64,000 bases of DNA from Yoonia rosea (GTDB taxonomy: Bacteria > Pseudomonadota > Alphaproteobacteria > Rhodobacterales > Rhodobacteraceae), in the NCBI RefSeq assembly GCF_900156505.1, contig NZ_FTPR01000001.1:186001-250000 (forward strand), written 5' to 3'. How positions within the stretch are numbered: position 1 is the stretch's first letter; every line of letters begins with the position of its first letter. Made by a program: the position numbers and the translations under genes. The notes beneath the pieces were generated by a model. The model worked only from the letters and a program-made list of their open reading frames with translations, searched no databases and was not told where the DNA came from. Positions 34,638 to 60,711 of this stretch are shown here, one piece after another.

Positions 34638-35158
34638 TAGCGAGGGTTTTCATTGTGGGCATGCTTCTGGCGGCGGCTGTGCTTGGCGGTGTGCTCTACT
34701 ACCAGCAGGTCTATGCCTATTATGATGAGGTGCAGGCCGGTGATGACGCCGTGCGCCTGACCTCTGTCAGCACCGGTGAGGCCGAACCGATTGTCGTGCA
34801 GAACTTCCAGGGCATCGACGCAATCAGCAGCCCGCTGCGCTACCGGGCCTGCTTTGAAACGACGCTCAGCCAAGCCATGCTGACCGAAACGTTTGAAATC
34901 GTTGATAACGCCGAACCCCGCGTGGCACCTCGTTGGTTCGATTGTTTTGACGCAGCCCAGATCGGGGCAGACCTGCGCACCGATGCCATTGCCTTTATGG
35001 GTGTTGAAAACATCGTATACGGGATCGACCGGATCGTTGCCATTTACCCCGACGGGCGGGGTTATGCGTGGCACCAGATCAATGAATGTGGCGAAGTTGT
35101 TTTTGACGGCAACCGCCCCCCCGAAGACTGCCCCCCAATTCCAGAAAGCACCGAGTGA
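34634..35158 (+). CDS. Small membrane-anchored protein between glyQ and glyS
   Basis: A 174-residue protein with one N-terminal membrane helix ([21 protein letters not shown]) and a periplasm-facing domain that has cysteines in [19 protein letters not shown] and EDCPP, which could form disulfides. I think it belongs to a Rhodobacterales-restricted uncharacterised family (DUF6446-like), but this is from memory. The GTG start overlaps the glyQ stop and its stop overlaps the glyS ATG, so it is translationally coupled to both. Function unknown. Confidence 0.8.
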
Positions 35159-37482
35159 TGCCTGATCTTCTGATTGAACTCTTCTCCGAGGAAATCCCCG
35201 CGCGGATGCAAACCCGCGCCGCCGAGGACCTGCGCAAACTGGTGACCGACGGTCTGGTCGAGGCGGGGCTGACCTATGCGGGTGCTGCTGCCTTTTCGAC
35301 GCCGCGCCGCTTGGCGTTGTCGATTGAGGGGCTGACGGCCGAGAGCAAGGCAGTGCGCGAAGAGCGCAAGGGGCCCAAAGTGGGTGCGCCGGACCAAGCG
35401 ATTGAGGGGTTCTTGCGCGGGGCAGGTGTTGCGCGCGAAGACCTTGAAGTACGCGACGACAAAAAGGGTCAGGTCTATTTTGCGGTGATTGAAAAACCGG
35501 GGCGGATGGCGGCGGATATCATCGCTGAAGTGCTGGAACAGACAGTGCGCAATTTCCCTTGGCCCAAGTCGATGCGCTGGGGTGATGGCCCGTTGAAATG
35601 GGTGCGCCCGCTGCACTCCATCCTGTGTATCCTCAGCGATGAAGCAGGGGCAGAGGTCGTGCCGCTGGACGTTGACGGCATCACATCGGGCAACACGACG
35701 CGCGGCCACCGTTTCCTTGCGCCGGATATTTTTTCTGTCACGAGTTTCGATGATTACGAGGCGAAGTTGAAGCGCGCCAAAGTCGTCTTGCGTGCCGATG
35801 AACGGGCCGAGGCGATCTGGCATGACGCCACCCATCAGGCTTTTGCGTTGGGGCTTGAGGTGGTCGAAGACCGTGGTCTGCTGGCCGAGGTTGCGGGGCT
35901 GGTCGAATGGCCTGTGGTCCTGCTGGGCCGGATTGATGACGCCTTCCTTGGTCTGCCGCCCGAGGTGCTGCAAACCTCGATGAAAGAGCACCAGAAATTC
36001 TTTTCCGTGCGCAACCCCAAGACGGGCCGGATCGAGCGTTTCGTGACCGTCGCGAACATGGAAACCGCCGATCAGGGCGCGACTATTCTGGCGGGCAACC
36101 AAAAGGTGCTGTCGGCGCGTCTGGCGGATGCGAAATTCTTCTGGGAAAACGACCTGCGTGTCGCCAAGGCTGGCATGCAGCCGTGGCTGGACAGCCTGTC
36201 CAACGTCACCTTCCACAACAAACTGGGCAGCCAGAAAGACCGCATTGACCGCATCGCGGCGCTGGCGCGCTGGATTGCGCCAAGCATGGGTGCTGATCCT
36301 GCACTGGCAGAGCAGGCGGCACGCGTCGCCAAGGCCGATCTGTCGTCCGAAATGGTTTATGAATTCCCTGAACTGCAGGGGCTGATGGGGCGGTATTATG
36401 CGGCCGAGGCAGGCCTGCCAGCCGAGGTTGCTGCGGCCTGCGAAGAACACTACTCCCCTCTGGGGCCTTCGGACGATGTGCCGACTGCGCCGGTATCCGT
36501 GGCCGTGGCACTGGCCGACAAGATCGACACGCTGACCGGGTTCTGGGCGATTGACGAGAAACCGACAGGGAGCAAAGACCCGTTTGCGCTGCGCAGAGCG
36601 GCGCTGGGGGTTATTCGGTTGATTTTGCAGAATAATCTGAAAATCGACCTGCCAACTTCGATCGGAAACGGTGTTATACGATGCCTCATTTCACAGATAG
36701 CGAGGACTATTGTATTCGGCTTAGACAAAAGCGACCCTAAGAAGGAGGGTTTCGTTTGGGAGCCGAAAGACCTGAGAGAGTTTTTGTCTAGTGGTGGGAA
36801 AGGATTTACAGCACTTTCGAAAGAGTTAAACGAATTCTTTGAAGGTTATGATGTTGCTATCCCAGTTAATGCGCCAATTCATGTTGAGGGCACAGTCATC
36901 GCCGAAAATTCATCAGGAATAGATGCTTACAGATTCTTTGGACCGGCTGATGTCGTGCCTGACCTCCTCTCGTTCTTCCACGACCGCCTCAAGGTTTTCC
37001 TCAAAGACAAAGGTATCCGTCACGATATCATCGACGCTTGCATCGTGATGCCGGGCAATGATGATCTGACGCTGCTGGTCAAACGGGCCGAGGCGTTGGC
37101 CGCAACCCTTGCCACCGATGACGGTGAAAACCTGATCCAGGGCTTCAAGCGTGCCAACAACATCCTGACACAGGCCGAGGAAAAGGACGGGGTGGAATAT
37201 TCCTATGGCGCGGACATCAAATTTGCCGAGGATGACGCCGAAAAGGCGCTTTTCGCGGCCCTTGATGCTGCAGATGCAAAAATCGCGCCCGCGATGAAGG
37301 CGGAGGATTTCAGCACCGCAATGACTGCTATGGCGGCACTGCGCGCGCCGATTGATGCTTTTTTCACCGATGTTCAAGTGAACGCCGACAGCGAAATCTT
37401 GCGCCGCAATCGCCTTAACCTTTTGTCCCGCATCAGGAATATCTGCCTCAGCGTCGCGGATTTGACGAAAATCGAAGGCTAG
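35158..37482 (+). CDS. glyS: Glycine--tRNA ligase beta subunit with an in-frame insertion
   Basis: The tRNA-binding beta subunit of glycyl-tRNA synthetase. At 774 residues it is longer than the usual 690 or so. N-terminal [18 protein letters not shown] and the central MKEHQKFFSVRN and FWENDL blocks are canonical, as is the C-terminal FFHDRLKVFLKDKGIRHDIIDA region. Between residues about 502 and 601 lies extra sequence with low GC and different codon use. The reading frame stays open through it, so the protein may remain functional with a bulging loop. ATG overlaps the upstream stop. Confidence 0.95.
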   Translation: MPDLLIELFSEEIPARMQTRAAEDLRKLVTDGLVEAGLTYAGAAAFSTPRRLALSIEGLTAESKAVREERKGPKVGAPDQAIEGFLRGAGVAREDLEVRDDKKGQVYFAVIEKPGRMAADIIAEVLEQTVRNFPWPKSMRWGDGPLKWVRPLHSILCILSDEAGAEVVPLDVDGITSGNTTRGHRFLAPDIFSVTSFDDYEAKLKRAKVVLRADERAEAIWHDATHQAFALGLEVVEDRGLLAEVAGLVEWPVVLLGRIDDAFLGLPPEVLQTSMKEHQKFFSVRNPKTGRIERFVTVANMETADQGATILAGNQKVLSARLADAKFFWENDLRVAKAGMQPWLDSLSNVTFHNKLGSQKDRIDRIAALARWIAPSMGADPALAEQAARVAKADLSSEMVYEFPELQGLMGRYYAAEAGLPAEVAAACEEHYSPLGPSDDVPTAPVSVAVALADKIDTLTGFWAIDEKPTGSKDPFALRRAALGVIRLILQNNLKIDLPTSIGNGVIRCLISQIARTIVFGLDKSDPKKEGFVWEPKDLREFLSSGGKGFTALSKELNEFFEGYDVAIPVNAPIHVEGTVIAENSSGIDAYRFFGPADVVPDLLSFFHDRLKVFLKDKGIRHDIIDACIVMPGNDDLTLLVKRAEALAATLATDDGENLIQGFKRANNILTQAEEKDGVEYSYGADIKFAEDDAEKALFAALDAADAKIAPAMKAEDFSTAMTAMAALRAPIDAFFTDVQVNADSEILRRNRLNLLSRIRNICLSVADLTKIEG
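36661..36960 (+). other. Low-GC in-frame insert inside glyS
   Basis: This 300-base segment is about 44% G+C by hand count, against clearly higher values on both sides, and uses codons such as AGA, TTA, TCT, AGT and GTA that are rare in neighbouring genes. It encodes about 100 residues (for example SDPKKEGFVWEPKDLREFLS) that interrupt the junction LGVIRLIL...LLSFFHDRL, which is continuous in typical GlyS. It keeps frame and has no stop. Exact borders are estimated. Confidence 0.7.
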
Positions 37483-60624: not shown

Positions 60625-60711
60625 GCGGTCGTGGCGGAATTGGTAGACGCGCAGCGTTGAGGTCGCTGTGAGGTAACACTCGTGGGGGTTCGAGTCCCCC
60701 CGACCGCACCA
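60625..60711 (+). tRNA. tRNA-Leu (anticodon GAG)
   Basis: The 87-base sequence folds as a type II tRNA. Acceptor stem GCGGTCG pairs with CGACCGC, with discriminator A and encoded CCA. The anticodon stem CAGCG/CGCTG holds the loop TTGAGGT, giving anticodon GAG for CUC/CUU leucine codons. A 15-base variable arm and a GGGGG/CCCCC T stem with TTCGAGT loop complete it. Confidence 0.98.

Follow-up and report, generated by a model that had tools for sequence, protein, structure and literature searches.

The core enzymes of translation would normally be counted with the slowest-changing proteins, passed on by vertical inheritance. The window analyzed here, a stretch of 64,000 nucleotides from Yoonia rosea, raises the question of how such an enzyme comes to hold DNA of foreign appearance: within glyS, a first-pass annotation had noted about 100 codons of low G+C that separate conserved blocks without breaking the frame, and had proposed either a selfish in-frame insertion element or an acquired domain. 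Comparison across the family shows that the site itself is hypervariable, a larger finding than the single insert. We posit, with somewhat more confidence than doubt, that the best explanation overall is a horizontally exchanged pool of GlyS-dedicated domains, perhaps kept diverse by a translation-targeting antagonist.

The glyS gene and the position of its insert

The gene encodes the β subunit of a bacterial (αβ)2 glycyl-tRNA synthetase: Pfam searches detected tRNA_synt_2f (PF02092) and the DALR_1 anticodon-binding domain, and the protein is collinear with Escherichia coli GlyS. A single frame runs uninterrupted by stops across its whole length, insert included (Table 1). By names read from the sequences, glyQ and a small gene lie upstream and a pyruvate-phosphate-dikinase-like gene downstream; the start of glyS and the stop codon of the gene before it overlap, which suggests translational coupling of the two genes. 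The window yielded a single tRNA gene, a tRNA-Leu(gag).

Table 1. Features of the glyS locus and its surroundings, in window positions
Feature	Position	Strand	Remarks
Start/stop overlap	35155-35160		GTG/ATG start of glyS; overlap with the preceding gene's stop codon
glyS, glycyl-tRNA synthetase β subunit with in-frame insert	35158..37482	+	~774 aa; listed frame 35155-37482, ATG at 35158
KDPFALRR codons	36574..36597	+	aligned with E. coli K475-R482, beside G473 and D474; acceptor-stem-binding segment just before the insert
Left edge	36613..36633	+	codons IRL-ILQN (IRL-VLEN in most relatives); the identical block of both transfer pairs begins here
Hypervariable block	36622..36969	+	GlyS residues 489-604 counted from the ATG, 116 codons; from ILQN (VLEN in most relatives) to DLL
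Unrelated core of insert	~36640..36960	+	no homologue in the collections searched
Right edge, CTCCTCTCGTTCTTCCACGACCGCCT (LLSFFHDRL)	36964..36989	+	low synonymous diversity only where inserts are swapped; one match per genome
tRNA-Leu(gag)	60625-60711		

G+C is 0.44 in the hypervariable block, 0.63 upstream of it and 0.55 downstream, and GC3 is 0.43 versus 0.71 in the glyS flanks, a value never attained when flank codons were resampled 100,000 times. The low G+C, intact frame, conserved borders and foreign codon use first reported for this stretch are therefore borne out; the span then given, 36661-36960, falls inside the block, whose alignable edges lie farther out. In alignment, 12 residues of E. 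coli GlyS (PDB 7yse) correspond to ~93 in the window protein, with collinear conserved blocks on either side. An excerpt of PMC9908026 describes E. coli G473, D474, D476, R482 and R531 as contacting the tRNA acceptor stem or the discriminator base. The insert begins ~20 residues past the position of R482 and ends ~14 before that of R531, which by alignment would place the exchange site between two acceptor-stem contacts in the HD domain. Placement is by alignment only because AlphaFold gave a poor model of the window protein (pLDDT 63; 31-60 in the insert; 40 close relatives in the input).

A hypervariable site between conserved flanks

GlyS was matched in 92 of 99 genomes, and in most genus members the alignment broke at the same position. 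The segment between the anchors ranges from 19 to 141 aa among the 120 proteins listed, and relatives' inserts at this site differ widely in length and are mostly unrelated; the expectation under which the first-pass annotation would have been wrong, one segment of like composition in most Rhodobacterales GlyS proteins, is not what these proteins display. The genus set, probably Yoonia/Loktanella to judge by the names of the nearest proteins, supplied 54 loci from 56 genomes (G021 was dropped for its split glyS and G029 left out), which hold 48 insert types, with four loops of 20-27 aa each counted as a type of its own. Altogether 202 distinct inserts were collected. Single linkage at E = 1e-3 sorted the 187 of at least 35 aa into 26 clusters and 80 singletons, hence 106 homology groups. 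Unrelated modules thus occupy one site between conserved flanks. All six locus pairs whose flank DNA is more than 90% identical carry unrelated inserts; an insert family is common to 1 of 15 pairs at flank DNA identity ≥0.88 and to 8 of 52 at 0.84-0.86, and about a third of 80 pairs with 97-99% flank identity have similar inserts, a list that contains near-duplicates and nonindependent pairs. Three source records named Yoonia maritima, with flank proteins 97-99% identical, contain three unrelated inserts. When 450 kb of this genome, about an eighth of it, was compared with 1.2 Mb of another (G045; frames of 200-2000 aa), glyS was the only one of 290 orthologue-like protein pairs with an interior block below 30% identity over at least 40 aa.

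Removal of the split locus and duplicates reduced 142 glyS loci to 131, and 125 were measured: GC3 lies below that of the host gene in 80 of the 81 noncanonical loci (0.47 versus 0.71, mean drop 0.24), and its dependence on the host is small (slope 0.23, p 0.08). The codon-position pattern of 74 noncanonical inserts is that of coding DNA, and their low GC3 could in part reflect weak codon selection. The canonical type, the largest cluster (44 of the 131 loci), was built on a segment with the motif HGVFGAA; the mean column identity over 38 aligned members is 58%, conserved anchors included. Its GC3, 0.67 versus 0.77 in the host, tracks the host (slope 0.90) and is lower in 33 of 44 loci, by 0.10 on average. 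On the flank tree the canonical/other state changes at least 24 times, fewer than in label shuffles (mean 36.9, minimum 30), so the state is partly inherited. AlphaFold predicts the canonical insert to be helical (pLDDT 75), with no PDB fold match to the model at E ≤0.001; a sequence search matched nothing but the conserved left edge of GlyRS. One member of this cluster, which contains chimeras, joins a first half resembling the L019 insert to a canonical HGVFGAA second half, as judged by eye (L073:5471-5752), and this suggests recombination inside inserts.

In G021 (locus L023) a break near the insert divides the glyS frame into parts of 602 and 203 codons, through frameshift, decay or assembly error. 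This split gene is the one point that speaks for an assembly or annotation artefact; scores of distinct genomes repeat the pattern, as do protein collections of several origins, and we consider an artefact hardly worth entertaining.

Movement of segments between species, and replacement in other families

Two pairs of loci are recent cassette transfers. Between L122 and L135 the inserts share 0.99 of their nucleotides (dS 0.00) and the upstream flanks 0.90 (dS 0.38); between L018 and L134 the values are 0.98 (dS 0.06) and 0.88 (dS 0.56). The borders are sharp: identity starts at the left edge and stops ~50 and ~10 bases past the insert, respectively. These are the only clean pairs, both inside the genus and neither with the window's own insert. 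The transfer of modules is also apparent in insert families that span genera and contradict the flank tree (fasttree). For each of 12 pairs of insert-mates, we counted how many of the 129 rows lie nearer on that tree than the mate: 105, 43, 113, 10, 8, 113, 113, 2, 13, 2, 88 and 106. The counts are large in most pairs, but only 2 in each of the recent transfers and 8 in L015/L017. The other recurring families are older: within those for which inserts of different species or genera were compared, amino acid identity is 24-71%, leaving aside the two recent transfers. A profile of the L015/L017/L100 family matched one of 394 genomes, in the GlyS of another genus and nowhere else (48% amino acid identity to L015; insert GC3 0.49 versus 0.73), so that this family, traced through 394 genomes, was not seen outside GlyS; the corresponding profile for L027/L084 matched none of the 394 genomes beyond those already known to carry that family. 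Against L004 and L005, L001 shows a patch of ~0.7 identity ~60-150 codons upstream, with ~0.9 elsewhere, indicating that some exchanges took more than the segment.

These comparisons bear on whether a single ancestral insert diverged by descent, so fast that its relatives became unalignable. The low identity within recurring families, 24-71%, is what such divergence would produce. Yet unrelated inserts of different lengths lie between flanks that are 98-99% identical as protein or 92-93% as DNA, and near-identical inserts lie between more diverged flanks; these pairs refute fast divergence as the main process, making it very improbable as the explanation, although it may act inside each family.

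Replacement extends beyond the Rhodobacteraceae. Among alphaproteobacterial families, five were represented by more than one genome; three of these show it, Rhodobacteraceae most strongly. In the f10 family (L144-L173), 27 of 30 loci were readable, with segments of 23-122 aa, many of them unrelated by eye and low in GC3; the site is hypervariable there without a conserved right edge. In f37 (L288-L304), 16 of 17 GlyS loci were readable and 11 hold 39-45 aa, whereas the replaced inserts, among them L292 (80 aa), L297 and L300, are lower in GC3. Elsewhere the segment is kept: 20 of 24 genomes of the G098 genus were matched, 19 loci were readable, and all 19 retain an alignable 34-aa segment whose GC3 follows the host (0.38 to 0.76), L182 excepted; in the G090 genus, three genomes keep 39 aa. 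We are highly confident that segments are exchanged at a fixed glyS site in Rhodobacteraceae and, to a varying degree, in at least two other alphaproteobacterial families.

For the window insert itself, no relative was found in the collections searched. Only two of 56 genus genomes matched it, its own and one (G052) through 26 conserved edge residues (E = 0.003). Among 394 evenly sampled family genomes, representing 393 genera, only its own GlyS matched (one genus), so that no other copy was found in its own genome or in the 393 others. A region search of 5.8 billion proteins returned, among 76 candidates, the window protein alone, and no short protein in that collection shared three words with the insert, both searches depending on shared 5-residue words. 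Phages, plasmids and IMG/VR held no match to it, to four other inserts (one search each) or to the edges, and it matched nothing in Pfam or NCBIfam. Scans of 84 inserts against Pfam, PHROGs, PADLOC and NCBIfam gave 37, 19, 18 and 27 families at E ≤0.1, more than the ~8 expected by chance per library; the matches are weak and scattered, each family matching one insert among the matches listed, with best E values of 0.0034, 0.0074, 0.00064 (second best 0.00091) and 0.00068, respectively, and none of the 84 inserts convincingly matched a toxin or immunity family in these libraries. Several inserts look coiled-coil-like by eye. Because the window insert has no relative, its import has to be deduced from its composition and the behavior of the site: it is most likely one allele of the pool, acquired by replacement. 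The earlier idea of an acquired domain is thus supported for the site, where unrelated low-G+C coding segments are exchanged, and more indirectly for this insert.

Proposed exchange at short edges and the alternatives

Where inserts are swapped, the right edge ranks lowest or second lowest in the gene for synonymous diversity. Synonymous diversity over LLSFFHDR, relative to the gene background, is 0.45 in 52 noncanonical genus loci (a level reached by one of 550 other windows, at the gene start) and 0.55 in 33 noncanonical loci of other genera (none of 399), but an ordinary 0.93 in 42 canonical loci (109 of 390). Mean mismatches to the 24-base right edge rise from 1.30 in 54 genus loci to 2.39 in the 33 noncanonical and 4.10 in the 42 canonical loci; the last two differ at p 0.0014, by a statistic that ignores relatedness, and of three control sites, one shows the reverse and the other two show no difference. 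The left edge is not significantly low (ratios 0.83 and 1.14), neither edge stands out in f10 although the site varies, and the edges likewise do not stand out in the f41 control genus. With up to three mismatches, the right-edge motif occurs once in 24 of 25 genus genomes and is absent from the remaining one and from all 16 genomes of other families searched. Our interpretation is that crossovers fall in the right edge, with another DNA-level signal as the alternative. One insert (L021:1279-1530) contains an FHDRL motif like the right edge, in DNA unlike it. Conversion from silent cassettes, as in antigenic variation, was rejected: no silent donor copy bearing the right edge was found in the 25 genus genomes, a test that covers donors with that edge.

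A selfish in-frame element, homing or resembling the Rickettsia palindromic elements, which inserts into genes and keeps the frame, would account for an insert that is in frame, low in G+C and patchy. The site, however, holds unrelated segments rather than one element, and the window insert is single copy, its sole match in its own genome being glyS. It has an unremarkable RNA fold (z -0.07) and no inverted repeat of 11 or more, and the mean longest matches over 141 loci, duplicates included, are 5.50 direct and 5.62 inverted versus 5.41 in shuffled sequence, leaving no target-site duplication, terminal repeat or palindrome that would mark a transposed element. An intein is rejected as well: Pfam and NCBIfam detect no splicing domain in the window insert, which is presumably too small for one. 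The selfish origin first proposed is accordingly highly improbable. Harder to dismiss, if unlikely, is a permissive loop undergoing neutral turnover, which tolerates almost any in-frame segment that arrives by recombination and drift, the insert being merely harmless. Lengths from 19 to 141 aa, four genus loci with no more than a loop of 20-27 aa, the weak, scattered domain matches of the 84 inserts and an f41 genus that manages with a 34-aa segment all fit such tolerance. Yet permissive loops should be common, and among 290 proteins only one behaves in this way; families of inserts turn up in more than one genus; the inserts bear a coding signature; and even species that share at least 90% of their flank DNA have undergone replacement. 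Nor does neutrality sit well with dN/dS. Of the canonical pairs, five have values of 0.05-0.10 and a sixth 0.52, while two gave no computable value; the five noncanonical pairs that could be computed have 0.09-0.52, three of them with saturated dS.

We therefore return to the exchanged pool of GlyS-dedicated domains. We posit that imported DNA recombines homologously through the short conserved edges, above all the right one, so that unrelated coding segments of ~20-140 codons, drawn from a pool that would be dedicated to GlyS, replace each other at the fixed site. The segment could form a variable surface near the tRNA that a phage or toxin product directed against GlyRS or Gly-tRNA would have to cope with; a new allele would then be favored and the pool would stay diverse. 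Such antagonist-driven diversification is plausible, if somewhat short of an even prospect. Searches of phages, plasmids and IMG/VR revealed no link of the site to phages or toxins, and the PADLOC and PHROGs matches are weak and single. Toxin AtaT2, which acetylates Gly-tRNA-Gly according to an excerpt of PMC7470980, offers a precedent for attack on the Gly-tRNA step, unconnected here to the glyS site. More tentatively still, the site may be an immune-like locus of allelic diversity in an essential translation enzyme, with more than 100 GlyS-dedicated domains that species swap at short conserved edges while an arms race against attackers of GlyRS or Gly-tRNA maintains their diversity.

Relation to known systems

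Whole-segment change between sister species points to an unrecognized antagonist or regulator of glycyl-tRNA synthesis. The inserts constitute a naturally occurring library of compatible insertions, and the site makes glyS ill suited as a marker gene in Rhodobacteraceae. No paper on variation at this site was found in the open literature among the matches listed, judged by title and abstract start.

Several known systems share parts of this behavior. In the HsdS subunits of type I restriction systems, unrelated target-recognition domains are swapped by recombination between conserved blocks, and the glyS site likewise holds unrelated domains at a fixed place between such blocks; HsdS, however, is a defense protein, whereas the carrier here is a housekeeping tRNA synthetase. 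Polymorphic toxin cassettes such as CdiA-CT have a sharp conserved border followed by unrelated modules, as at the glyS site, but the glyS insert is internal rather than C-terminal and has no convincing toxin or immunity family match; the two recent transfers carried hardly anything besides the segment, so that no linked partner gene came with it. Rickettsia palindromic elements are, like the glyS insert, in-frame additions, yet they are repeats added to many genes, whereas glyS offers one site with unrelated inserts and no palindrome. Lineage-specific insertions in aminoacyl-tRNA synthetases are typically kept within their lineage, whereas the content of the glyS insert differs between sister species. 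The lineage-specific Ins3 of human GlyRS, as described in an excerpt of PMC8464048, is an extra domain in a synthetase near the tRNA, and in this respect resembles the glyS insert.
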